Of a stretch of 64,000 nucleotides of DNA, positions 22,485-35,950 are shown in pieces. Both the position numbers and the translations under genes were made by a program. Source of the stretch: an uncultured bacterium (GTDB lineage Bacteria; Cyanobacteriota; Vampirovibrionia; Gastranaerophilales; JAILCC01); NCBI GenBank assembly GCA_949283935.1, contig CASDUJ010000006.1, positions 1 through 64,000 on the forward strand, in the 5' to 3' direction. Positions within the stretch are counted from its first letter, which is position 1, and every line of letters starts with the position of its first letter. The notes below the pieces were generated by a model, which worked only from the letters and a program-made list of their open reading frames with translations, searched no databases and had not been told where the DNA came from.

Positions 22485-23138
22485 CTACAAAAGAGCTAAA
22501 GCACATTTGTAATCATATTCTGTATCTATATCTAATGCTTGCTTTTGGTTCACAATCATTCTGTAAGCTCTTGGACCAAAATGATAATGCCATTTTTTTA
22601 CACTTTCTTTGGGAGAAAGAATAATACCATTAGTAAAACAATGAAAAACAGGTAAATCTTGAGAATTTTTATGAGCTAACCCCATCCCAAAATTCATTGG
22701 ACCTTTTTCATCTAATAAAAAATGTTGAAAAGGTAAAACTGTTATCAAAGAATCATAATTGTTATTTAAATTTTCAAAATATAAAGAAATCGCTTTTTCG
22801 TACAAATTTTCATCCACTAAAGGAGATGTGCAACAAGACCACATTAAATGTTCAGAATTTATTACAGTACAAATATAATCTAAAAAATCAGCAAATGGTT
22901 TTGTCTCATTGGCTAAATCTTTTGGCCTTTTAATTGCAAGAACATTTTGTTCTTGAGCCATTTCAAGCATTTCATCCGAATCAGAAGAAACTATTATTTC
23001 GTTTAATCCTGAAACTTTTTTTAATTGTTGTATCTTATGTATTAATAAATTAGTACCTGCAAATGGTAAAATATTTTTATTTTTTAATCTTGAACTATTT
23101 GCTTTGACAGGAATTACTGCAGATATTGTTTTCTTCAT
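22485..23138 (-). CDS. CMP-sugar synthetase-like cytidylyltransferase (copy 2)
   Basis: A 217-residue nucleotidyltransferase of the NeuA/KdsB type, which activates acidic sugars as CMP derivatives. It starts MKKTISAVIPVKANSSRLKN, with the nucleotide-binding AVIPVKANSSRLKNKNILPF, then EIIVSSDSDEMLEMA and a C-terminal QALDIDTEYDYKCA; this last block is the usual metal-binding DID(T/D)EYD of the family. The family N-terminal RxGSKxxxxKN motif is changed. It is paralogous over its full length to the gene at 24149-24817, with the aldolase between them. Its start overlaps the end of the aldolase gene by 44 bp. It is the last gene of the operon. Confidence 0.75.
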   Translation of the reverse strand: MKKTISAVIPVKANSSRLKNKNILPFAGTNLLIHKIQQLKKVSGLNEIIVSSDSDEMLEMAQEQNVLAIKRPKDLANETKPFADFLDYICTVINSEHLMWSCCTSPLVDENLYEKAISLYFENLNNNYDSLITVLPFQHFLLDEKGPMNFGMGLAHKNSQDLPVFHCFTNGIILSPKESVKKWHYHFGPRAYRMIVNQKQALDIDTEYDYKCALALL

Positions 23139-24156
23139 ATTTGCCCTCTTTTTGTTTCTTGCTTATTTCTTCAGCTAAATTTTTATCAAAATTATTGTCT
23201 TTAGAATTTTTCTTTACTTCTATTAATAGTTTTTGTATATCTTCTAATTTAATATCGGTTTGACTTACAAAATATTCTGCATAAGAACGATGTAATTTAA
23301 GTTTTGCAGTCCAATAATAAGCAGGTGAATAACCCCAAAAATATTCTTTTCTTATTGGTAAAATATATTCGCCTATGGCTTTTAAAATTTTGGATATATC
23401 ATAATTTAAATTATAACAACTGTTTACATAATCCATTATAGCCTCTATACACAAATTTCCTGGAACTCTTCCCATACCGTACAAAGAAGCATCCAAAAAA
23501 ATTTTCCTTTTATCATTTTTTATTTGTAAAAAATATCTTGCCAAAGCAAAACTTAAATTTAAATTTTCATGTAAATGTAAATCAATAATAATATCATCAT
23601 TTAAAGTTGTATCTAAATATTCATATATTTGGGACAATTCTTTTTCCATAAGAGAACCATATGTGTCAACAATTGTGACAGCATAAGGATTTATTTCCTT
23701 TATATCTTTTACTAATTGCTTCAATTCTTTCGGAGTGTATCCAGGCATATTAACAGGATTTAGAAAAAATTTGTATCCAAGTTCTCTAGCTATTTTGCAA
23801 TATTTTTTAACTAACTCAATATCTTTATAATAAAATGCAAATCTTAAAAAATTAATTTTCCCATTACAAGGCGAAAGTTGTCTTATATCATACCAATCAG
23901 GCCTTATCATAAGCGAATATTCCGAAATAGATTTATTTGGTAAAAAAGAATATACTTCCTCTATTTTGTTATAATTTGATTCATTTTCGTCAAAATTGCC
24001 ATTTTTTAAAAATCCTAGTTCAATTATATTTGTTCCAGCTTCATTTAAATATTTAATAATTCCTTTAATTGTATCTTTACCAAATTTTGCATTGTTTACA
24101 TGACCTCCATCTCTTAAAGTACAATCAAGTATATTTATATTTTTGAAATTACACAT
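23095..24156 (-). CDS. DRE-TIM (HMGL-like) aldolase in a CMP-sugar cassette
   Basis: A 353-residue TIM-barrel protein of the HMG-CoA lyase/4-hydroxy-2-oxovalerate aldolase superfamily. It starts at the ATG at 24156 (MCNFKNINILDCTLRDGGH). The signature is DCTLRDGGHVNN, with catalytic RDG; the metal-binding HLHEN lies near residue 196, and GMGRVPGNLCIEA near 225 matches the conserved GxGRxxGN segment. A likely reaction is aldol condensation or cleavage of a 2-oxoacid, which could build the acidic sugar that the neighbouring cytidylyltransferases activate. The gene lies between the two cytidylyltransferases and overlaps both, which suggests tight coupling. The substrate is unknown. Confidence 0.75.
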   Translation of the reverse strand: MCNFKNINILDCTLRDGGHVNNAKFGKDTIKGIIKYLNEAGTNIIELGFLKNGNFDENESNYNKIEEVYSFLPNKSISEYSLMIRPDWYDIRQLSPCNGKINFLRFAFYYKDIELVKKYCKIARELGYKFFLNPVNMPGYTPKELKQLVKDIKEINPYAVTIVDTYGSLMEKELSQIYEYLDTTLNDDIIIDLHLHENLNLSFALARYFLQIKNDKRKIFLDASLYGMGRVPGNLCIEAIMDYVNSCYNLNYDISKILKAIGEYILPIRKEYFWGYSPAYYWTAKLKLHRSYAEYFVSQTDIKLEDIQKLLIEVKKNSKDNNFDKNLAEEISKKQKEGKYEENNICSNSCQSK

Positions 24157-24817
24157 CTTTTTGTTCCTTATTCTCAACAATTTCAGCCATCTTTAAATCT
24201 TCTAAATTTTTAATTTCTATGGATTCTTTTTTATCAAGAAAAAATTTATAAGGAATGTCCCCCCACAAATAAGACCATTTCAACATATTTTCTTTAGAAG
24301 CTATAGTTATTCCGTTTATCCAAAAATAAAGTTGACTTAATTTAGAAGTTTCTCTATGGGCTAAACCTTTTCTGAAATTTACTGCACCATTATCATCTAT
24401 AACATAACGTTTAAAAGGTAAAACAGTAATCAAAGAGTCATAGCCTTCTTGAATTTTATTGTCGTATACATCAATTGTTTTACTAAATAAATTTTCGTCT
24501 ATAAATGGGGTACAACAACTTGTCCATAATATATCAGAAGCTTCTATCGCAGGTAATATAGTGTTTACGAGATTTGATAATGTATCTTCTTTTTCGTTTA
24601 ATTTGGGCCTTTTAAAAATAGAAACTCCTTCTTGTTCTGCCATAGACAAAATTGTTTCTGACTCAGATGCTACAATAATTTGCTTTAAATTCTTTACTTT
24701 TTTTAATTGCTCTATTTTGTGCATAAGTAAATTTGTGCCTAAAAAAGGAAGAAGATTTTTGTTTTGTAAATTATAATCAAATTCACGAGCCGGTAAAATA
24801 GCAACAATATCTTTCAT
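24149..24817 (-). CDS. CMP-sugar synthetase-like cytidylyltransferase (copy 1)
   Basis: A 222-residue paralogue of the protein at 22485-23138. Matching blocks include NKNLLPFLGTNLLMHKIEQL, QIIVASESETILSMAEQEGV, ILWTSCCTPFIDENL and YDSLITVLPF. The nucleotide-binding loop (AILPAREFDYNLQNKN) and the C-terminal acidic motif (ESIEIKNLEDLKMAE instead of DIDTEYD) are both degraded relative to copy 2, so this copy may have lost catalysis or act as a regulatory partner. I took the ATG at 24817 with AAGGTT upstream. It overlaps the upstream PRTase gene by 4 bp and the aldolase gene by 8 bp. Confidence 0.7.
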   Translation of the reverse strand: MKDIVAILPAREFDYNLQNKNLLPFLGTNLLMHKIEQLKKVKNLKQIIVASESETILSMAEQEGVSIFKRPKLNEKEDTLSNLVNTILPAIEASDILWTSCCTPFIDENLFSKTIDVYDNKIQEGYDSLITVLPFKRYVIDDNGAVNFRKGLAHRETSKLSQLYFWINGITIASKENMLKWSYLWGDIPYKFFLDKKESIEIKNLEDLKMAEIVENKEQKDV

Positions 24818-25518
24818 AAGCAACCTTCTTTCTTGTTTGGGAAACATTCAAAACATCCTTTACATATATCAGGAAAATATTTGTTTATTTTAAAACTAAA
24901 ATTTTCGTAATTTTGAAAAATAACATCATTTACATTGAAATAATCTTTTAACATATCAGGTCTTATATGTTCAAGCAACATATTTTTTTGGGGCATTATT
25001 CCTTGAAAACAAGAATTAAAACACATTGAAGTAGGAATAAGAAGATAAATAGCTTTTGCATTAAAAGTTTGAAGCATTTCGCACAAAATTTTTAATGTTA
25101 ATCCCGTGAAAATAGCTTCATCAACTACTGCTATTTTTTTATTTTCAACTAATTCTTTTATTGGGTATAATTTCGACCAAATAAATTTTTTTCTTTCATC
25201 TGCATCAACAACAGAAAGATATCTCTGTTCAGGAGACATATTTACAATTGCAGGAACATAAGGTTTGTTTAGTCCAAGAGCCAAGCCTATTGCATAATAT
25301 ATGCCTGTTTGAGGACAAGGAGCAACAAAATCAATATCGGATTTTATCTCTTGGGGAATAATTTTTGCTAAATCATGACCAAGCTCTATCCTAAAGTCAG
25401 CAATATTTTTATCTTTATAAATTTCTATTGGATTCTTTTTGTATATTACTTCCAGTACACAATCCTTCTTTGTAATTTCTTCTGTATCTTCAGATCTATT
25501 ATATTGCATATTTATCAT
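24814..25518 (-). CDS. PurF-like phosphoribosyltransferase without glutaminase domain
   Basis: A 234-residue type I PRTase domain resembling the C-terminal half of amidophosphoribosyltransferase. Landmarks are DIDFVAPCPQTGIYYAIGLA, the AIVNMSPEQRYL loop, and the PRPP-binding VVDEAIFTGLT at about residues 131-141 (family consensus VDDSIVRGTT). The N-terminal Ntn glutaminase domain of PurF is absent. C-terminal cysteines (CKGCFECFP) could bind metal. I chose the ATG at 25518, which has GGAG upstream; a TTG at 25539 is in frame. Its place between a GT29-like gene and the cytidylyltransferases suggests a role in making an unusual sugar donor; the true reaction is unknown. Confidence 0.7.
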   Translation of the reverse strand: MINMQYNRSEDTEEITKKDCVLEVIYKKNPIEIYKDKNIADFRIELGHDLAKIIPQEIKSDIDFVAPCPQTGIYYAIGLALGLNKPYVPAIVNMSPEQRYLSVVDADERKKFIWSKLYPIKELVENKKIAVVDEAIFTGLTLKILCEMLQTFNAKAIYLLIPTSMCFNSCFQGIMPQKNMLLEHIRPDMLKDYFNVNDVIFQNYENFSFKINKYFPDICKGCFECFPNKKEGCL

Positions 25519-25535
25519 GTAGACTCCGTTACGAC

Positions 25536-26735
25536 TCAATGTCTTTTATTATTTAATATTTTGTTGATTATCTTTTTTTCTTTATCTAAATCATGATCAA
25601 TTCTATTTTTTATAACAGCAATTTTTTCTTGATCATAATGTACCCATTCTTTGTGTATTTTACTGTCTTTGTATGAAAAACCATAACAATTTTCCATAGA
25701 AAAATTTGAAATATATGTACTTAAATAATATATCATATGAAAACCTCCCGAAGGAGTACCAAGTTTGTATTTCTGATACATTTCTTTTCTCTTTTGAGGA
25801 GAATACAAAAGAATTTTTTTATCATTTTCTATTAATTCTGACAAAAATTTTATAGTTCTTTCATCCGCTAATTCTCCGTACCAATTAACAAATGGACAAA
25901 CAAAATCTATTTCTTTATTCTTTAATATCTCTTGAATATCAAAAAGACAAGTAGCCCATACATTTACTTTACTTCCATAATCCGCTTGATAATCAATAGA
26001 TGTGGAAAATTTATTCATTCTTATTACAATATCATAATTGTTTATTAAATTTCCTAACTTTTTACCTGCTTCTTGAGGACCATTCCCTACCAAAGCAATT
26101 GTTTTATTTTTTATATATCTCCCAAAATCATTGTTTTTTTCAACTAATAAAATGTGCTCCCATATTTTTGCACTTGTTTGAATTATTTCACTTTCAATTC
26201 CGTTCTTTTGAGCAAACCATGCTACAGGTAACAAATTAGCTATCAAGTTGTCACTATGTCTTTTATTATAATCTTTTAGTAATTCTGTAGCTTTTTCGTA
26301 TTTTTTCTCAAATATTAATAAAGATATATAATGCAAATATGTTACACAATGAATTTTTTCTTGCCAATTTTTTTCTTTTTCTATTAATTTAAATATTATA
26401 TTTAGTTTGTTTATTGGATCTCCATGCATTAATAAAAAATAAACAACCCCTTCGTACGAATACCATTTGTTGTCAAAATTTTTATTAATAAGTTTACGCC
26501 AGCATTTATATATGTGTTCTAAACTATAACCTGCTTCAATCCATCTTAAATAATCTAAAGTGTAATTGTATATTTCAGGTAAATTTTCTCCTTTGTTATA
26601 TGAATTTCTATCCAATTTAAAATGTTTATCATGAATAGTATTTATAATTTTATCAATATCTTTAATTGTACAAAAATTAAATTTATCCTTAAAAAAATCA
26701 TTGTTAACTTTAATTTTTAATCCTAGAAATTTCAT
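25536..26735 (-). CDS. GT29 sialyltransferase-like glycosyltransferase
   Basis: A 399-residue protein. The C-terminal half carries sialyltransferase family 29 motifs: motif L as KTIALVGNGPQEAGKKLG then NNYDIVIRMN (residues 211-241), YGSKVNVW (253-260), motif S as GTPSGGFHMIYYL (326-338), and a final HYDQE (366-370) like motif VS. GT29 enzymes use CMP-sialic acid and are best known in eukaryotes; bacterial members occur in glycan loci. The N-terminal half (about 1-200) is helical and unassigned, and begins FLGLKIKVNN, a remnant of the tag seen in neighbours. Two cytidylyltransferase-like genes lie downstream in the same operon, consistent with a CMP-sugar donor. Confidence 0.75.
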   Translation of the reverse strand: MKFLGLKIKVNNDFFKDKFNFCTIKDIDKIINTIHDKHFKLDRNSYNKGENLPEIYNYTLDYLRWIEAGYSLEHIYKCWRKLINKNFDNKWYSYEGVVYFLLMHGDPINKLNIIFKLIEKEKNWQEKIHCVTYLHYISLLIFEKKYEKATELLKDYNKRHSDNLIANLLPVAWFAQKNGIESEIIQTSAKIWEHILLVEKNNDFGRYIKNKTIALVGNGPQEAGKKLGNLINNYDIVIRMNKFSTSIDYQADYGSKVNVWATCLFDIQEILKNKEIDFVCPFVNWYGELADERTIKFLSELIENDKKILLYSPQKRKEMYQKYKLGTPSGGFHMIYYLSTYISNFSMENCYGFSYKDSKIHKEWVHYDQEKIAVIKNRIDHDLDKEKKIINKILNNKRH

Positions 26736-26736
26736 T

Positions 26737-27996
26737 TTATCCCCTCTTTTGAAAACAAATAAAATGAGATTTACCTTTATAACTTTGTTTATCTGCTAAA
26801 TAAGCTTGATAATATTGAATTATATTTTCACTATAAAAATTTGATAATGATTGATTTAATTTATATTCTAAAATGTCTTTGTAATAAACAAAATCTAATT
26901 CTTCAGTCTCATAAGAAATTATTTCAATAGGAAAAATTTTACTTAAATACTCAAAAAATTCTTTGTTGATATCTAAACAATGATGTGGAGGTAATTCTAA
27001 TAATCCAGGAGTCTCTTTAACAAAAATACATTTGGGATTAGGTACTGCTATACATAATAAACCTTTTTCATTCAATAATCTTAGACTATTTTCAATAAAA
27101 TTCCTTATGTCAGCGGCATGTTCAAGAACCTGAAATGCACATATCATATCAAATTTTTCTTCCATATCTTTAATGTCAATAGAACAAACATTAAAAGATT
27201 TCTTTTGGCAAACAGCAAGGGCATCAGGGTTGAATTCAATCCCCATTACATTTGCTACAGCATTGTGAATTTTTTCTATGAAATATCCGTATCCACAACC
27301 TATATCTAAAACAGAATCTGGATTAAATTGCTTTATCAACTCAATGGACCTTTCATATTCCCATTTGTAACGAGTATATGGTTCTGCCAAAGATAAATAT
27401 ATGTGTTCGTATAATTCAGGCAAATCAGGAATTTTGTAGTTGTAATATTGCAAATGACAATTTTTACATTCCCTTTTTTCCAAACTTTTATTCTCATAAC
27501 ATTCATCATAAGGAATAATGTTAAATTCTTTTTCCCATCTTTCTTTCAATGAATTTATTGAAAACTCTTTAAGCAAAAAATATTCTTTGCTTCCACAAAA
27601 AGGACATTCTTTTATGTCTATGGGCATATTTAAACCAGCACTAATTTTTATAGCAGGTATTGTGGAAATAATTTCTTCTTGGGCAATTTCATCTTTTAGT
27701 TCGTTACTTTCGCCAAAACAATTATTTTCATTTAAATCTGTTGACTCTGTATTTATAGCATCTTCAGAAATTATTGTATTATCTGTATTAGATATTTCCT
27801 GATAATCAGCAGTGTCAACATTTTGTTCTGACAATTGCAAATTAGAAATATCAACAGGATTTACTTCTTCTTTGGTATGTAAATTGTTCATTTTAAATTT
27901 TATTTTTATCCCTAAAATAGTTAAAATTTTATGGTTTTCGTAATTCTTAACTGAAAATATTCTTTCTAATAAACTATATTGCATTTTATTTTCCAT
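26737..27996 (-). CDS. SAM-dependent methyltransferase with zinc ribbon and N-terminal tag
   Basis: A 419-residue protein. Residues about 10-35 carry the shared tag (LERIFSVKNYENHKILTILG then IKIKF). An acidic, low-complexity linker (about 40-115) follows. A treble-clef zinc site (CPFCGSKEY and CKNCHLQYY) precedes a class I Rossmann methyltransferase with motif I VLDIGCGYGYFIEKI, GIEFNPDAL, and motif IV FDMICAFQVLEH. This zinc-plus-methyltransferase form is common among sugar methyltransferases in surface-glycan loci. It lies 1 bp upstream of the GT29-like gene in the operon. The methyl acceptor is unknown. Confidence 0.85.
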   Translation of the reverse strand: MENKMQYSLLERIFSVKNYENHKILTILGIKIKFKMNNLHTKEEVNPVDISNLQLSEQNVDTADYQEISNTDNTIISEDAINTESTDLNENNCFGESNELKDEIAQEEIISTIPAIKISAGLNMPIDIKECPFCGSKEYFLLKEFSINSLKERWEKEFNIIPYDECYENKSLEKRECKNCHLQYYNYKIPDLPELYEHIYLSLAEPYTRYKWEYERSIELIKQFNPDSVLDIGCGYGYFIEKIHNAVANVMGIEFNPDALAVCQKKSFNVCSIDIKDMEEKFDMICAFQVLEHAADIRNFIENSLRLLNEKGLLCIAVPNPKCIFVKETPGLLELPPHHCLDINKEFFEYLSKIFPIEIISYETEELDFVYYKDILEYKLNQSLSNFYSENIIQYYQAYLADKQSYKGKSHFICFQKRG

Positions 27997-28025
27997 ATTA
28001 ATTTTACCTACCTATTAATAATTAC

Positions 28026-29339
28026 TTAGCTGCATACTGACTTTTGTCTAAATAATTCTTCTAATTGAGATTCAAATTGTTCTATTTTATAATTGTTTAG
28101 ATAAATTTCTCTGGATCTAAGACCTATCTCAGGTAATTGTTCTCTATTTTCTATAATCCAAATTAACTTTTCACAAAGTTTCGAAATGTTTTCCGTTTCA
28201 ACCACAAAACCATTGTAATTATCTGTAATTAAATCTTTTTGTCCAACATTTGTCGATACAAGACAAGGCTTAGCAAACATCATTCCTTCTGCTACTACTT
28301 TTGGCTCGGGATCATCTCTCGATATGCATACTACTACGTCTGTTTCTTTGTATATTTTATCTTTTTCTTCAAAAGAAACAAATCCATGCCAATTTATATT
28401 GTTATCTTTACTAACTTGTTTCTTTAATTCTTGGGCAAAAGGTTGACTATCATGTCCGACTATATTTAATTCTATTCTGTTTTTATATTCTATTGGTAAA
28501 GTTTTTATTGCTTTTACAATAATATCATATCCTTTACGCTCTTCTATTGTTCCGAACATCGATATGACTATTTTTTCGGTTTGGTTTATGTATTGCTGTT
28601 TATAACTATCTTCAAAACCATATTTAAGTATTTTTACATTTCTGCAAAATTTATCCAAATAAGATTTAGAATAATTACTAACTGTGTATAAACCTGAACA
28701 ATTTTTCAAAATATCCTTTAAAGATCTAATATTTTTTTGAGCCTTGAAAATTTTTATGTGCAAATCTTCTACACATTTCCCTTCATGAACCCACCAAATA
28801 ATTTCTTTATTAGTACCTTGTAACAAATCTATTGCAGCATATGTATCAATAGTATTACAAAATATAGTGCTAAATTTTAATGCTAAATCTAAAAACAAAG
28901 CTTGGTTTTCATGTATATCATTTAATACAAAAGTTGGTATATTTTCTTTTACAAAATTATTTCTTAAAGGACCATCTTTAAATGAAAGTATAGCTATATA
29001 ATATCCTAATTTTTTTAAGTAATTAATTACAGGGATTAGTATAAGAGGAGCTCCAGTTAACGAAAATTCATGAGAAACAAATAAAATACTTTTCTCTTGG
29101 GGAATTTCCTTTTCAATTCGTATTAATTGTAACATAGCTAGTGTAGAAGAATGATTTTGATTTGGAATATTAGAAAATAAATTTTCAATGTAATTTATTC
29201 TTGTCTCTAAATTACATAATTGCCCTATAAATTTTTTGTATTTGTTTACTAATTTTAATTTCATACCAAACAAAGTTAACACTTTATGGTGATTATCATT
29301 TTTTATTGAAAATATCTTTTTTAAAAATTTCATTTTCAA
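28026..29339 (-). CDS. GT4-family glycosyltransferase with N-terminal tag
   Basis: A 437-residue GT-B enzyme. The shared tag is at the N-terminus (FLKKIFSIKNDNHHKVLTLF then GMKLKL). Next comes the acceptor-side Rossmann domain (ILFVSHEFSLTGAPLILIPV), then the donor domain with VISMFGTIEERKGYDIIVKA, NWHGFV and the EX7E-type site DDPEPKVVAEGMMFAKPCL with TNVGQKDLI. These are typical of retaining GT4 transferases that use nucleotide sugars. It overlaps the upstream acyltransferase gene by 4 bp. GDP-heptose from the upstream genes is a possible donor, but this is inferred only from context. Confidence 0.88.
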   Translation of the reverse strand: MKMKFLKKIFSIKNDNHHKVLTLFGMKLKLVNKYKKFIGQLCNLETRINYIENLFSNIPNQNHSSTLAMLQLIRIEKEIPQEKSILFVSHEFSLTGAPLILIPVINYLKKLGYYIAILSFKDGPLRNNFVKENIPTFVLNDIHENQALFLDLALKFSTIFCNTIDTYAAIDLLQGTNKEIIWWVHEGKCVEDLHIKIFKAQKNIRSLKDILKNCSGLYTVSNYSKSYLDKFCRNVKILKYGFEDSYKQQYINQTEKIVISMFGTIEERKGYDIIVKAIKTLPIEYKNRIELNIVGHDSQPFAQELKKQVSKDNNINWHGFVSFEEKDKIYKETDVVVCISRDDPEPKVVAEGMMFAKPCLVSTNVGQKDLITDNYNGFVVETENISKLCEKLIWIIENREQLPEIGLRSREIYLNNYKIEQFESQLEELFRQKSVCS

Positions 29340-30151
29340 ACCTCATTGTATTTTTCTAAAGGATTATCTGTATGTTTATATGAATCATCTAATTCAAAAT
29401 GCCACATAACATTTCTTTTTGCAACTTTTGCAGGAGTTCCTGCAATAATTGAATTTTCTTCATTAAATTCTTTGTTAATAGTACTTCTTGCGGCAACAAT
29501 ACTATTAGAAGGGACCTTAGCTTTATTCAAAAACAATGTATCTTCACCAACCCATATGTTGTTGCCTAATTCTATTCCTTGTTCTTCGTTAACTTGTTTT
29601 TTGGTATTAATATCATAAATCATATGAAAAGAAATTCCATAAAATCTTACATTATAAGCAAATAAATTATTGTTTCCAATAACAACTTTTTTATTTTGAA
29701 CAGTTGTAGGTATTATAAACATAAATCCATTAAAATAATTGTTTGAACCAATTTCTAAATTATATTGTTCTTTTTTACCCAATACTACGTTTACTACAAC
29801 CAAAGCATCTTGAACAATAATATTATTTGTTCCAAAACTAAAATTCATATTACTATGAGCTTTAATTTTTAAACTCCCTCCACCTTTAAATTCATTAAGC
29901 TTAATTATATTGTTAGAACCAAATATTTCAAAAATTACATTACATTCCTTAATTGGTTCGTAAATTCTTTTTCCGTTAAAATATATTTCATTTTTTAAAA
30001 AAATTTTTGAAATATCTTCTTCTTTATTTGCAACAGATTCTACAATAAAAAGCTTTTTTTCCTTATGAAATTTTAGTTTTATTCCTAAAAAACAAACAAT
30101 TTTATGATTACCCTCATTTTTTACAGAGAATATTTTTTCTAAAAAATGCAT
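29336..30151 (-). CDS. Left-handed beta-helix acyltransferase with N-terminal tag
   Basis: A 271-residue protein. The shared tag (FLEKIFSVKNEGNHKIVCFLG then IKLKF) precedes a hexapeptide-repeat region (GSNNIIKLN, IEIGSNN-like turns, VVIGNNNLFAYNVRFYG). The end is typical of LbH acetyltransferases (IELGNNIWVGEDTLFLNKA, SIVAARSTINKEF, IIAGTPAKVAKRN). The catalytic His is probably the one in ISFHMIYD. Such enzymes O- or N-acetylate surface sugars with acetyl-CoA. It follows gmhA by 1 bp and overlaps the GT4 gene by 4 bp. Confidence 0.85.
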   Translation of the reverse strand: MHFLEKIFSVKNEGNHKIVCFLGIKLKFHKEKKLFIVESVANKEEDISKIFLKNEIYFNGKRIYEPIKECNVIFEIFGSNNIIKLNEFKGGGSLKIKAHSNMNFSFGTNNIIVQDALVVVNVVLGKKEQYNLEIGSNNYFNGFMFIIPTTVQNKKVVIGNNNLFAYNVRFYGISFHMIYDINTKKQVNEEQGIELGNNIWVGEDTLFLNKAKVPSNSIVAARSTINKEFNEENSIIAGTPAKVAKRNVMWHFELDDSYKHTDNPLEKYNEV

Positions 30152-30152
30152 T

Positions 30153-30713
30153 TTATTCTCCTTGATTCATAAAAATTTGCATAATCATGTGAGCAAGCAT
30201 CATATGAATATCTTCTGAAATTTGCATGTCATTAATATTAGCATTAACAGAATATTTGGCTATTTTTTTTAAAATACCACCATTATAACCAGTTAAACCA
30301 ACTGTTATTCCACCATTTTCGTTTGCATATTCTATTGCCTTAATTATGTTTTTAGAATTTCCGCTGCCTGAAATGCCTATTACTACATCATCTTTACTCA
30401 AAAAATTCTTCAATTGCTCAACAAAAACATCTTCATATCCTACATCATTTGCATATGCAAGCATTGTTGCAATATTATCGTTTAAGCATATCATCTTAAA
30501 TTTCTTATCTTTTTGATAACTAACTCCTTTATTAAAATCGCAACAAAAATGACTAGCCGTAGCAGCAGAACCGCCATTGCCCATAATATAAATTTGAGTC
30601 CCTTTGTTTTTGGATTCCGTTAAAATTTCAATAAATTTTTCAATTTCATTTCTGTCAAGATTATCTATACAAGTTTTTAGTTTGTTCAAATAATTATTTA
30701 TAGCTTCTTTCAT
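30153..30713 (-). CDS. gmhA: Sedoheptulose-7-phosphate isomerase
   Basis: GmhA converts D-sedoheptulose 7-phosphate to D-glycero-D-manno-heptose 7-phosphate, the first step of nucleotide-heptose synthesis. The 186-residue SIS-domain protein has MGNGGSAATASHFCCDFNKG, the phosphate-binding GISGSGNSKNII, and the C-terminal catalytic ISEDIHMMLAHMI (Glu/His pair). Its neighbours encode the next three activities, which confirms the assignment. Confidence 0.93.
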   Translation of the reverse strand: MKEAINNYLNKLKTCIDNLDRNEIEKFIEILTESKNKGTQIYIMGNGGSAATASHFCCDFNKGVSYQKDKKFKMICLNDNIATMLAYANDVGYEDVFVEQLKNFLSKDDVVIGISGSGNSKNIIKAIEYANENGGITVGLTGYNGGILKKIAKYSVNANINDMQISEDIHMMLAHMIMQIFMNQGE

Positions 30714-31718
30714 TTACACACAACTCCTATATAAATCAACTTTGTTGTAATGAATAACATTTGTACCTTTGTTATCAAATTTAAAATTAATTTCTTTTAA
30801 ATTTTTTAAAGCTCTTCTAACTCGGCTTTTGTGTTGTTCTTCTACATAAAACAACAAGAAACCTCCACCACCTGCACCTAAAAGTTTACCTCCCAATGCC
30901 CCATTTTCTCTTGCCAAATCATAATAGTAATCTATATCTGCATTGCTTATTCCATTAGCGAGTTCTTTTTTGTACATCCAACCAGTATGTAAAATTTCTC
31001 CCATAGCATTTGTATTACCTTTTAAAAGTTCTTCTTTCAAATCTTTTGATAATTGAACCATTTTGTGTAAATTATTAATTTTAGCCTTATCATCTGTAGT
31101 ATTTTTCTTTTGTTCGGCTAATATGCTGCCAGCAGCTCTGGTTTTTCCTGTATAAAACATCAAAAGATTTTTCTCCAAAACATGGTATGCATCTGATTGT
31201 AAATATAATTTTTCTACGTCAACTACTCCATCTTTGTAAAATTCTATAAAATTTAATCCGCCACAAGCACAAGCATATTGATCTTGCTTTCCTATGGGTT
31301 CTTTTAAATCTTCTATTTCTACTTTACAAGCTAATTCCGCTATTTCTTCTCTATTCATATATTTATCTGTATAAGCATTACAAAGATTAATTAGTCCTAC
31401 CGTAAAAGCTGACGAAGAAGCAAGTCCAGTCCCTGAGGGGATATCAGCACTTGAATTAAAATCAACTCCAATTATACCGTATTTTTTGAATACTTCCTTA
31501 ATTATTGGATGTTGAATTTCAGCTAAAGAATTAGCATGTTCCGTTTTGGAATATTTAAGTAAATACGAATTTTCTTCAAAATATGGATGCATGGAAAGAT
31601 AAATATACTTATTTATCGAAACACTTAACACGGAACCACCATATTTTTCATAATAATTTCTTAAATCACTTCCGCCTCCAGCAAAACTTATTCTAAAAGG
31701 TGTTCTAGTTATTATCAT
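30714..31718 (-). CDS. hddA: D-glycero-D-manno-heptose 7-phosphate kinase (HddA-type)
   Basis: A 334-residue GHMP kinase. It begins MIITRTPFRISFAGGGSDL, has the phosphate-binding loop IPSGTGLASSSAFTVGLIN around residues 92-110, and motif 3 LGGKLLGAGGGGFLLFYVE near the C-terminus. HddA phosphorylates the anomeric position to give the 1,7-bisphosphate of the GDP-heptose route. It starts directly before gmhA and overlaps the fused guanylyltransferase-phosphatase gene by 4 bp. Confidence 0.92.
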   Translation of the reverse strand: MIITRTPFRISFAGGGSDLRNYYEKYGGSVLSVSINKYIYLSMHPYFEENSYLLKYSKTEHANSLAEIQHPIIKEVFKKYGIIGVDFNSSADIPSGTGLASSSAFTVGLINLCNAYTDKYMNREEIAELACKVEIEDLKEPIGKQDQYACACGGLNFIEFYKDGVVDVEKLYLQSDAYHVLEKNLLMFYTGKTRAAGSILAEQKKNTTDDKAKINNLHKMVQLSKDLKEELLKGNTNAMGEILHTGWMYKKELANGISNADIDYYYDLARENGALGGKLLGAGGGGFLLFYVEEQHKSRVRRALKNLKEINFKFDNKGTNVIHYNKVDLYRSCV

Positions 31719-32995
31719 TTTTTTGCTCCATTCTTCAGTATTATGTTCGTTGCTTTTAACAAATTTTCTGCATTAAAATCTGCATTATCAGAAATTTCTT
31801 TTGAAATATAAATTGTCTTGCAACCCACATTTTTCCCCGCCAAAAGGTCTCTCTCACTATCTCCTATTATCCAAGAATTCGCTAAATCTATATTTAAATC
31901 TTCAGCAGCTTGCAAAAGCATTCCTGATTTAGGTTTTCTACAGTTACAATCCATTTTTAATTCAGGGATTTCTCCATCAAAACCTTTTTCCGGATGATGT
32001 GGACAATAGTAAATACCATTGAGAAATGCTCCTTCTTTTCCAAGTAATGTTTCCATTTTTTTATGAGTCATTTCCACTTCGTCAAAAGAAACAAAACCTT
32101 TTGCAATCATTGGTTGATTAGTAACAACTACAGAAAGATAGTCACTATTGTTTATAAGTTTTATTGCAGCTGAAACATCTTCTAAAAGTTCAAAGTCTTT
32201 TGCTAAAGGATTAGAATCCATATTTTTATTTATAACACCATCTCTATCTAAAAAGACACAAGGTCTTTTATTTTGCTTGTTTAATCTAGCAACTTTACCT
32301 GAAATAAAATCATTTTTTACTTTTTCAAATCTATCTGCAGTACCCATATCTTTTATATATTCCGGTGTTTTGTAAGCATACAGTAATTTTGAACTGTCAA
32401 CAATTTTTTTCAATATATGTTTGCCAAAATCTTGAGAAATGTCTGCCTCAATAAAATCAAATATCTCTGGTGAAAAAATATAAACAGCAGCATTAACTAA
32501 ATTTTGATAATATTCATTTTCATTATGAGGTTTTGGAATAACTTTAATAACTTTGTTATCTGCATCAACTTCTAACAAATCACTATCATAAGGATGATCG
32601 TTAGGATGAACTAAAGTTGTACCAATAGATTCATGTTTTGCATCAAATTCTATAAAACTTTTTAAGTCGAAATCCATAACAACGTCGCCATAAAAAACCA
32701 TAAATCTATCTTGTAAAATACCTTCCAAAAGTTTAAGACTTCCTGCAGTTCCCAAAGGATAAGGTTCAACAATATGATGAATTTTTACCCCAAATTTTTC
32801 TCCATTACCAAAATAATTTTCTATTACATGAGCTAAATGTCCCGAAAGAATAAAAATTTCTTTTATTCCGTATCGTTTTGCCAAATCTATTTGATGTTCC
32901 AAAAGAGGCTTTCCTGCAATTTCAACCATTGGTTTTGGAATATCTTTTAACCCAAGCCGAGTACCTTTGCCTCCTGCAATAATTACAAGTTGCAT
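31715..32995 (-). CDS. Fused heptose-1-phosphate guanylyltransferase (HddC) and heptose bisphosphate phosphatase (GmhB)
   Basis: A 426-residue two-domain protein. Residues 1 to about 235 are a sugar-nucleotidyltransferase (IIAGGKGTRLGLKDIPKPMV, VFYGDVVMDFD, KPEYIKDMGTADRFEKV-type end) matching HddC. Residues from about 245 are a HAD phosphatase like GmhB (VFLDRDGVINKN with both nucleophilic Asp, VVVTNQPMIAKGF, a zinc site in YYCPHHPEKGF and DCNCRKP, and WIIGDSERDL). GmhB removes the 7-phosphate and HddC then transfers GMP, so one polypeptide does steps three and four of GDP-D-glycero-D-manno-heptose synthesis. It overlaps the epimerase gene by 13 bp. Confidence 0.92.
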   Translation of the reverse strand: MQLVIIAGGKGTRLGLKDIPKPMVEIAGKPLLEHQIDLAKRYGIKEIFILSGHLAHVIENYFGNGEKFGVKIHHIVEPYPLGTAGSLKLLEGILQDRFMVFYGDVVMDFDLKSFIEFDAKHESIGTTLVHPNDHPYDSDLLEVDADNKVIKVIPKPHNENEYYQNLVNAAVYIFSPEIFDFIEADISQDFGKHILKKIVDSSKLLYAYKTPEYIKDMGTADRFEKVKNDFISGKVARLNKQNKRPCVFLDRDGVINKNMDSNPLAKDFELLEDVSAAIKLINNSDYLSVVVTNQPMIAKGFVSFDEVEMTHKKMETLLGKEGAFLNGIYYCPHHPEKGFDGEIPELKMDCNCRKPKSGMLLQAAEDLNIDLANSWIIGDSERDLLAGKNVGCKTIYISKEISDNADFNAENLLKATNIILKNGAKK

Positions 32996-33942
32996 AAATC
33001 TTTCTCCAAAATATAGCGAATAGATTTTCTCACTGCATCGTTAGAAGAAACTTTTGCGCTCCAACCTAATTGATGTATTTTTTCAAGACTATAACTAAAT
33101 TTAGGAACATCACCAATCCAACCTCTTTCGCCTCCAGTATACTTTATTTTTGCATTTAAGCCCATTTCTTCTATTACCATTTGAGCAATTTCTTTAACCT
33201 TTGTACGAGATTCTACTCCGAGATTAAAATAATTAATTTTTTCATTAGTAGTTTTCCAAACCAGTAAAATTGCCTCAACCAAATCTTTTACGTATAAATA
33301 TGGTTTTATTTGCTCGCCATTTCCCAAAACTTCTAATTCATTAGGATTTTTTCTTAATTTATTAATAAAATCAAAAACTGCTCCATGAGTTGCCCTTTCA
33401 CCAACTACATTAGGAAATCGAGTAATCCAAGCTTGAAATCCATAATTTTCGCAAAAACTTGAAATATAAGCTTCTGAAGCAAGTTTAGATGCTCCATAAT
33501 GTGATATAGGAAACAGAGGACCATAATTTTCATCTACAGAAACATTTGTTTCGCCATATATAGCAGACGTAGAAGCAAATACAATATTTTTAACCTTGTA
33601 TTTTTTCATGGCCAAAAGCACGTTGTATGTGGTAGATAAAGTATTATCGAAATCAACATTAGGATTAGCATGACTTTTTGCTATATCAGAATTTGCCGCC
33701 ATGTGAAAAATCACATCAAAATCTACTTGTTCAAAAACAGCAAATAATTCCTCTTTATTTAAAATATCCCCTTTTATAAATTTGCATCTGTTTTCATTTT
33801 TTAAAGCACATTCTAAATTTTCCATTCTTCCTAAAGAAAGATTATCAAAAATTACAATATTATTTCCTTCTTCTAAAAGTTTATCAGCTAAATGACTGCC
33901 AATAAATCCAGCTCCACCAGTAATAAGTATATTTTTAGCCAT
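32983..33942 (-). CDS. NAD-dependent sugar epimerase/dehydratase
   Basis: A 319-residue extended SDR. The NAD site is LITGGAGFIGSHLADKL, followed by DNLSLGRMENL, the catalytic Ser/Thr in VFASTSAIYGE, and YGASKLASE with the Tyr-x3-Lys pair. It is of the GalE/UDP-glucuronate epimerase-like group; the exact substrate cannot be told from sequence. As first gene of an operon that makes GDP-heptose, it may act on that nucleotide sugar, or it may be a UDP-sugar 4-epimerase. Confidence 0.85.
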   Translation of the reverse strand: MAKNILITGGAGFIGSHLADKLLEEGNNIVIFDNLSLGRMENLECALKNENRCKFIKGDILNKEELFAVFEQVDFDVIFHMAANSDIAKSHANPNVDFDNTLSTTYNVLLAMKKYKVKNIVFASTSAIYGETNVSVDENYGPLFPISHYGASKLASEAYISSFCENYGFQAWITRFPNVVGERATHGAVFDFINKLRKNPNELEVLGNGEQIKPYLYVKDLVEAILLVWKTTNEKINYFNLGVESRTKVKEIAQMVIEEMGLNAKIKYTGGERGWIGDVPKFSYSLEKIHQLGWSAKVSSNDAVRKSIRYILEKDLCNL

Positions 33943-34105: not shown

Positions 34106-35950
34106 ATGAAAATATTAGTACATTTACATTTATATTATTTTGAACAATTAGATTTTATGCTGGAAAAACTAAAAAATATTTCAGGATGTAATTGGGATTT
34201 ATATGTTACAATTTGTAAAAATAACAAAGAAATTTCCGAAAAAATTTTGAAATTTAAATCTGATGCCAAAATAATGCAAGTAGAAAATAGAGGATATGAT
34301 ATTTGGCCGTTTTTACAAGTATTAAAAATCGTAAATCCAAAAGAATATGACCTTGTTCTTAAAATTCACACCAAAAAAACTGAACGTTGGAGAAATACAT
34401 TAATCCAAAATCTTTTGGGTACATCAACCATTTTTCAAAACAATTTAAAGATTTTTGAAAAAAATCCTCGGATAGGAATTTTAACGAGCAAAGATTATTG
34501 CTGGGAAATTTATGATGATAATGAAGTTATTTCATCACCAGAAGATAAATACCTACTGGCTAAAATGAAACAAAGACTTAACATAACAAGTAAATACAAG
34601 TATTTTTGTGCAGGTTCAATGTTTCTCGTAAGAACTTCTATATTAAACAAACTTATTTTATCTGATATAAATGAATCTGATTTTCCTTTAAATGCTACTT
34701 CAGGTACTACAGGCACAAATGCTCACACGATAGAAAGAATTATATCTTTGCTTGCAGACCAAAACGGATACAAAATACATAAAATAAATTCTTCTACAAA
34801 TATTAAGCAAGCAATAAACAATTTTATGGAAAATTTATTTTCATTAAAAAATGAATATCGTAATCGAAAACAACAAAAATATAAAACACTAAAAATTTTG
34901 GGAATAAAATTTAAATTCAAGATGAAATATAGTTCCCCATATTCAATTTCGTATCCTGAAAATGAAAAAAGAACAGCAATATTTGCGCATTACGATAAAA
35001 ACAACAAAATTCAAGACTATGTTGTATATTATTTGCAAGAATTAAAAAAAGTTGCAAACAACATTATATTTGTTTCAGACAACAATTTATCTTCAATAGA
35101 ATTAAGCAAAATAAAAAATATTGTTAGTTATTCAATTGCCCAAAAGCATGGAGAATATGATTTTGGCTCATACAAAAGAGGATTTTTGTATGCAAAGGAT
35201 AATGGATATTTAAACAACATTAAAGAACTTATTTTTGCAAATGATAGTTGTTATGGTCCATTATTTCCTTTTGATATTATGTTTGATGATATGTCAATCA
35301 AACCTGTTGATTTCTGGGGAGTAACATTTAATGTACATGGACTTAATCCTAATATTAAAAACCAAGGTCATATTCAATCTTATTTTGTTGTTTTTAAGCC
35401 ACAAATATTTAACTCAGAAATTTTCAATAATTTCATTTGCTCAATAAAAAAAGAAGAAATTAAAGAAAAAATTATAGAAAATTATGAAATTGGCTTATCT
35501 AGAATGTTAATAAAAGCAGGCTTTAATTGCGATGTATATTTTGAAGAAAGCAAAAAAGATAATTTCAAAACCTGTAATCTTTTTGTCGAATATTATGACT
35601 TAGCAATAAAAAATAATGTTCCTTTAATAAAAACAAGTATTCTAAGAGGACTAAATGAAGATTTAGTAAATTCGAAAGAAGCTTTTAGATACGTAAAAAA
35701 GCACACAAGTTACAATATTTCTCTTATAGAAAAAGATTTGTTATACAATAAGAAATACATAAAACCTAAAATTCTAAAATCAATTTTTTCAATAAAAAAC
35801 AGCTACACAAATTTTAAGCAAAGCAAACACAAAGTCATTTCAATCTTAGGATTAAAATTTAAAATTAAAGTAAAAAATAATATTACCCAAAAAGAAAATT
35901 CTTCACAAATAAACCAAAGGAATTTAGAAGCAAAGGAGTTAATTAAATGA
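34106..35950 (+). CDS. Double RgpF (rhamnan synthesis protein F)-domain protein with two tags
   Basis: A 614-residue protein with two RgpF-like (PF05045) regions. The first (about 1-230) has VENRGYDIWPFLQVL, YDLVLKIHTKK and CAGSMFLVR. The second (about 290-540) has KRTAIFAHYDKNNKIQDYVV, EYDFGSYKRGFLY, LIFANDSCYGPLFPFD and FWGVT. RgpF-type proteins help build rhamnose-glucose polysaccharides. The tag seen in neighbours appears twice, between the domains (LKILGIKFKFKMK) and at the C-terminus (IFSIKNSYTNFKQ then HKVISILGLKFKI). It overlaps rfbB by 4 bp, which fits use of dTDP-rhamnose. No membrane helix was seen. Confidence 0.85.
   Translation: MKILVHLHLYYFEQLDFMLEKLKNISGCNWDLYVTICKNNKEISEKILKFKSDAKIMQVENRGYDIWPFLQVLKIVNPKEYDLVLKIHTKKTERWRNTLIQNLLGTSTIFQNNLKIFEKNPRIGILTSKDYCWEIYDDNEVISSPEDKYLLAKMKQRLNITSKYKYFCAGSMFLVRTSILNKLILSDINESDFPLNATSGTTGTNAHTIERIISLLADQNGYKIHKINSSTNIKQAINNFMENLFSLKNEYRNRKQQKYKTLKILGIKFKFKMKYSSPYSISYPENEKRTAIFAHYDKNNKIQDYVVYYLQELKKVANNIIFVSDNNLSSIELSKIKNIVSYSIAQKHGEYDFGSYKRGFLYAKDNGYLNNIKELIFANDSCYGPLFPFDIMFDDMSIKPVDFWGVTFNVHGLNPNIKNQGHIQSYFVVFKPQIFNSEIFNNFICSIKKEEIKEKIIENYEIGLSRMLIKAGFNCDVYFEESKKDNFKTCNLFVEYYDLAIKNNVPLIKTSILRGLNEDLVNSKEAFRYVKKHTSYNISLIEKDLLYNKKYIKPKILKSIFSIKNSYTNFKQSKHKVISILGLKFKIKVKNNITQKENSSQINQRNLEAKELIK

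Follow-up and report, generated by a model that had tools for sequence, protein, structure and literature searches.

A cytidylyltransferase–aldolase–sialyltransferase cassette in a gastranaerophilalean glycan operon: a candidate aldolase route to CMP-ulosonates

The window analysed here is a 64,000-nucleotide stretch of the genome of an uncultured bacterium of the order Gastranaerophilales (assembly GCA_949283935.1, contig CASDUJ010000006.1, positions 1 to 64,000 of the forward strand). On its minus strand, at 22485-26735, five open reading frames (ORFs) with mutual overlaps of 4-44 bases encode a sialyltransferase-like glycosyltransferase (GT29), a PurF-type phosphoribosyltransferase domain (PRT), two cytidylyltransferases (CTases; here CT1 and CT2) and a DRE-TIM aldolase (ALD). 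Together with seven upstream genes they make up a 12-gene minus-strand operon (22485-33942; gaps of -44 to 29 bases) in which family scans recognised no phosphoenolpyruvate (PEP)-dependent NeuB/KdsA synthase. An original prediction, made from the sequence alone, had described five coupled genes of these families; coordinates, overlaps and Pfam and NCBIfam matches confirm that description, and all five family assignments exceed chance in the Pfam and NCBIfam scans. The best explanation is that the cassette forms the end of a surface-glycan operon and would specify a cytidine monophosphate (CMP)-ulosonate pathway in which a pyruvate aldolase stands in for NeuB/KdsA, a reading to which we assign, from sequence evidence, a probability of about 0.68. 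Its basis is the protein families, a predicted fold, near-invariant active-site residues, and gene neighbourhoods and their recurrence; from these we infer which way the reaction runs, in what order the steps follow, that the donor is pyruvate and not PEP, and that GT29 uses the product.

The cassette enzymes

ALD (23095..24180, minus strand; PF00682, E 1.5e-20) is a protein of at most 361 amino acids (aa), for which codon 9 (ATG) is a possible alternative start. Its best NCBIfam family is 4-hydroxy-2-oxovalerate aldolase (67.8 bits, far under the equivalog cut-off of 286), and its best sequence matches are aldolases of that kind and BVU_2661 (PDB 3dxi), the closest solved structure by sequence, which the PDB entry names only a putative aldolase. 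The fold was modelled on the closest homologue, from Treponema (pLDDT, the predicted confidence score, 77.7; three-sequence alignment). The 12 best PDB fold matches of this model are DmpG-type pyruvate aldolases and 3dxi, with carboxylases and homocitrate-type synthases ranking after them. Among 110 ALD homologues, R23, H202 and H204 do not vary and D24 almost never does; from family knowledge, we take these four to be the pyruvate and metal residues. Position 27 is His in 14 of the 110, the window protein included, and Tyr in 92. Fold model and active site thus appear to match DmpG-type pyruvate aldolases such as DmpG and BphI, with which ALD shares the metal and arginine residues and a His at the position of DmpG His21. 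It differs from them in its glycan context, in the lack of a partner (no DmpF-type acylating aldehyde dehydrogenase was recognised among the operon genes scanned) and in that many of its relatives bear an additional domain: most ALDs from our GTDB scan are fused to a C-terminal domain of MptE-like fold (model pLDDT 93).

CT1 (22485..23138, minus strand; 217 aa; PF02348, E 8.7e-15) belongs to the NeuA/PseF/KdsB superfamily of CTases, and its best NCBIfam model is PseF, with a score under the cut-off. It carries the metal motif DIDTEYD, as the original prediction had noted, and retains R17, K21, N22, D203 and D205. The last two align with Asp209 and Asp211 of Neisseria meningitidis CNS, the mutation of which strongly reduces activity (PMC2901514). 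CTases from eight genomes of Lachnospiraceae and other Clostridia share 58-61% identity with CT1, and a Treponema CTase shares 57%; no relatives were found in phage records. Judged by these residues, it is probably an active CMP-activating enzyme. CT2 (24149..24847, minus strand; PF02348, E 4.9e-12) is a diverged paralogue, 39% identical to CT1, that sits on a long branch within a 16-row clade including CT1. Compared with 95 aligned CTases it has exchanged R17 for N, D203 for E, D205 for K and S15 for D, so that the DxD pair reads E-I-K and the metal motif is lost. The altered active site that had been predicted for one of the CTases is thereby borne out, but the expectation of two working enzymes is not: having lost conserved residues, CT2 is probably inactive or non-catalytic.

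GT29 (25536..26735, minus strand) matches PF00777 with 49.8 bits (E 4e-13) against a cut-off of 23, which removes the earlier concern that the resemblance might be due to chance. The match covers the C-terminal half, with about 200 N-terminal aa lying outside it. Sialylmotifs L, S, III and VS are present, motif III being the least clear; residues of the L- and S-motifs, Y367, H381 and E386 are conserved in the alignment, and the best PDB match is a weak one to ST3Gal I (E 0.003). GT29 genes occur in 12 of the 383 genomes of the order. They lie upstream of CT1-ALD in one locus (L238), beside a CTase in a second (L239), and upstream of NeuB and NeuA, with a KdsC-like gene nearby, in a third (L236); these neighbourhoods, three loci only, are consistent with one transferase family being fed by either route, aldolase or NeuB. 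Two plasmid records also carry GT29, in an Escherichia coli capsule region with kdsB (L262:7062-8597) and in Paracoccus beside an acylneuraminate CTase.

Aldolase neighbourhoods in other genomes

The 110 ALD relatives and their loci were drawn from the window's order and from the GTDB scan, which contributed 77 loci. In 64 of the 110, the gene immediately upstream of ALD encodes a CTase, and in 75 a CTase gene is no more than four genes away; as background, a CTase gene immediately precedes just 15 of the 1,803 other genes in these loci. From the scan loci, 27 CTases of 235-260 aa encoded immediately upstream of ALD were tested, and 25 of them matched KdsB at E<=1e-40. Additionally, of the 77 GTDB loci, 23 have a KdsC-type HAD protein at position +1 relative to ALD and 27 have one no more than four genes away, and in ten a second HAD type takes the +1 position; both KdsC-type proteins tested score above the TIGR01670 cut-off. 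NeuB was found in only one ALD-scan locus among the fetched stretches (L159), and AroF-like 3-deoxy-D-arabino-heptulosonate 7-phosphate (DAHP) synthases in two (L113 and L126). KdsA is almost never near ALD, as sought within the loci through the AroF query and not genome-wide in the KdsB-ALD-KdsC carriers.

Neighbourhoods of this CTase-ALD(-phosphatase) type recur over several phyla and an archaeon and are widespread among gut bacteria, their carriers being Lachnospiraceae, Gastranaerophilales, Akkermansia, Treponema, Helicobacter and a haloarchaeon. Cultured species with an ALD include Gemmiger formicilis and Mediterraneibacter glycyrrhizinilyticus. The window ALD falls in a four-row clade (SH-aLRT branch support 99) with single-domain ALDs of Treponema (L113), Oscillospiraceae (L135) and the haloarchaeon (L146), and this clade nests in one of 37 rows (support 100) that mostly have CTase/phosphatase neighbourhoods. 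A partial counterpart of the cassette was found in a Treponema genome (G383), which encodes on one strand a CT1 relative (57% identity), a radical SAM frame interrupted by a stop codon, an ALD (49%) and an RmlD-PRT fusion (39%); this set spans two contigs, their join being deduced from an exact 81-base end overlap. Co-conservation of all five genes, which the original prediction had led us to look for in a neighbourhood search, was not found: beyond the window there are CT1, ALD and PRT in the one Treponema and GT29, CT1 and ALD in one relative.

Some loci have further genes of note. On a Treponema contig (L255:3649-8864), a fused ALD is grouped with three CTases and an RraA-like aldolase (PF03737), a hint that a single strain may make several ulosonic acids. 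On a Desulfobaculum plasmid (L110:5837-10005), rfbH, a split transketolase and an ALD homologue are consecutive, perhaps representing a branched-sugar pathway. Proteins of about 570 aa with nucleotidyltransferase- and kinase-like sequence, which by eye resemble each other, lie near ALD in Oscillospiraceae (L135:1719-3428) and in the haloarchaeon (L146:7454-9184). A phosphonate pathway, combining a CTase and a DRE-TIM enzyme with PepM, was considered and rejected: a crude motif scan matched two ORFs, of which the ALD-adjacent one is a YfhO membrane protein and the other lies on another contig of the window's own genome (C23).

A candidate route to CMP-ulosonates and its alternatives

Textbook routes to CMP-activated 3-deoxy-D-manno-octulosonic acid (CMP-Kdo) and to CMP-sialic-type sugars begin with the PEP-dependent synthases KdsA or NeuB. 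In the pathway proposed here, ALD would bind pyruvate at a divalent metal (D24, H202, H204, R23) and condense the pyruvate enolate with a sugar aldehyde to yield a 4-hydroxy-2-keto acid, thereby substituting for either synthase. If the aldehyde is phosphorylated, a phosphatase would strip the phosphate; its gene neighbours ALD in relatives, and here the enzyme would need to be supplied from another part of the genome. CT1 would then form the CMP derivative of the 3-deoxy-2-ulosonic acid and GT29 would transfer the activated sugar, with CT2 a decayed or non-catalytic duplicate and PRT responsible for an accessory step. That a DRE-TIM aldolase might stand in for the NeuB/KdsA step had been suggested in the original prediction, and the recurrent CTase-ALD(-phosphatase) neighbourhoods, with their KdsB- and KdsC-like partners, argue for it; the suggested use of the CMP-sugar by GT29 likewise finds support in neighbourhoods, in few genomes.

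The proposed pathway resembles the CMP-Kdo pathway (KdsA, KdsC and KdsB) in that many ALD relatives have a KdsB-like CTase and a KdsC-like phosphatase alongside, and in its expected product, a CMP-activated 3-deoxy-2-ulosonate. It differs in having a DRE-TIM pyruvate aldolase rather than PEP-dependent KdsA and, in the window, a CTase that is NeuA/PseF-like instead of KdsB and a transferase of family GT29. With the NeuB/NeuA pathways to nonulosonic acids it shares CMP activation by the NeuA superfamily and a user of the sialyltransferase family, but the cassette is without NeuB, and the aldol condensation is predicted to proceed via a metal-dependent pyruvate aldolase. Conservation of the sialylmotif residues links the window GT29 to described bacterial members of this family (PMC5811610), from which it differs by the aldolase-type donor pathway predicted in its operon. 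We found no account in the open-licence literature of a DRE-TIM aldolase acting in a CMP-ulosonate pathway; subscription journals were mostly outside this search, and the negative is therefore no proof of novelty. If the proposal is true, surveys keyed to neuB or kdsA would overlook some producers of ulosonic acids, including Gram-positives without lipopolysaccharide, and the cassette provides a directly testable gene set and a named enzyme step.

The accessory step would fall to PRT (24814..25539, minus strand; PF00156, E 4e-6; TIGR01134 purF, E 1e-15). As originally predicted, this is a PurF-like protein without the glutaminase domain, matching TIGR01134 over model positions 224-428 only, that is, its C-terminal half. 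Residues C27, C177, C226 and C229 align with cysteines of Bacillus subtilis PurF (1gph), which we presume to be Fe-S ligands. The phosphoribosyl pyrophosphate (PRPP) loop is altered (VDEA[IV]FTG[LV]TLK); it reads VDEAIFTGLTLK in the window and is nearly identical in Treponema. In an Oscillospirales genome, a third, standalone PRT of this type is flanked by split transketolase genes (L261:8520-9176). Searched with queries from the window and with CTase, NeuB and HAD queries, that locus matched PRT only, with no CTase, aldolase or GT29; PRT is therefore not confined to the cassette. Among 200 genomes of the family to which Treponema belongs, only Treponema itself stood out, the others having full-length PurF-sized frames. 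One relative was found among 394 genomes from the order of the Oscillospiraceae carrier and none in viral contigs; in the window's order, the search gave PurF-sized frames except for the window and one short frame.

In this operon PRT is coupled to glycan genes, and in Treponema to ALD and CT1, which raises the possibility that it is a glycan phosphoribosyltransferase adding ribose from PRPP, in which case the operon would add two unusual sugars. Such PRPP-using enzymes, CriT and gPRT among them, are documented (PMC10299916, PMC11127046), and PRT resembles them in lying inside a glycan operon. However, its sequence is PurF-like, a PRP-type phosphatase partner was not recognised in the operon by general family scans, which included no PRP-specific model, and the relative between split transketolases has neither a CTase nor an ALD match. 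We consider this role possible rather than probable; it can be compatible with the CMP-ulosonate pathway. The pentose unit that, in the original prediction, PRPP might supply is hypothetical. Similarly tentative is the broader proposition that the aldolase route is widespread in gut bacteria, that the sugar made here is an undescribed one and that a PurF-derived phosphoribosyltransferase adds or supplies a ribose-derived unit, which, taken as a whole, we would not expect to hold.

Several observations weigh against the CMP-ulosonate pathway. The complete five-gene set, like CT2 by itself, was seen only in this window, and the operon showed no dedicated phosphatase, its sole HAD domain being GmhB-like. 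Most single-domain ALDs found elsewhere in the order have no CTase nearby, so not every ALD homologue has a pathway role; the loci counted share ancestry, and their counts are consequently not independent. Finally, the genome also encodes a NeuB, a PseF-like CTase and a KdsC-like HAD protein, and CT1 and GT29 could thus serve a NeuB product. The statement that NeuB is absent therefore holds within the window and fails genome-wide, a NeuB-family protein (258.7 bits) being encoded on contig C8 and followed by the KdsC-like HAD gene.

A conventional route could be built from these genes, in which the sugar is a product of the C8 NeuB and its KdsC-like neighbour, with CT1 for activation and GT29 for transfer, leaving ALD to modify or recycle the sugar or to do something else. 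The adjacency of GT29 to NeuB and NeuA in the relative L236 and the sub-threshold PseF score as the best of CT1 fit such a route. Yet CT1-type CTases accompany ALD, not NeuB, in many genomes; neuB lies on a different contig from the operon, and contig C10 already supplies a PseF-like CTase beside a KdsB-like one, all of which makes this explanation unlikely. Somewhat less likely still is that ALD is a lyase or a Claisen-type synthase of the isopropylmalate or homocitrate style and that its link to CTases reflects mere shared residence in surface-glycan loci. PF00682 does include Claisen synthases, and in four ALD homologues the aspartate of LRDG is replaced by Glu, but ALD falls with the pyruvate aldolases in both fold and sequence, and the enrichment of CTases upstream of ALD, together with the KdsB- and KdsC-like partners, is too specific for co-residence. 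That PRT is a purine enzyme using free ammonia, present in the cassette by chance, is very improbable, for although the genome (an incomplete assembly) has no full PurF match and a PurD-like ORF that reaches the end of contig C26 (L234:5630-6919), it has no PurM match, and the Treponema with PRT beside ALD carries a separate full-length PurF-like frame.

The upstream genes of the operon

The seven genes upstream of the cassette (26737..33942, minus strand; gaps of -13 to 29 bases) encode a methyltransferase, a GT4 glycosyltransferase, a hexapeptide-repeat protein, GmhA-like and HddA-like proteins, a nucleotidyltransferase-GmhB fusion and a short-chain dehydrogenase/reductase (SDR) epimerase, with family matches that are mostly under the equivalog cut-offs. 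Given its GmhA-like, HddA-like and nucleotidyltransferase-GmhB-like genes, the operon that carries the cassette probably also makes a heptose-type sugar nucleotide. A leader of about 30 aa, with a consensus of about LEKIFSIKN..HKVLTILGIKIKFK, occurs at the start of three glycan proteins and twice inside a fourth; the leader-bearing ORFs of the window lie at 26737-27996, 28026-29339, 29336-30151 and 34106-35950. The N-terminus of GT29 (MKFLGLKIKV) corresponds to the tail of this leader.

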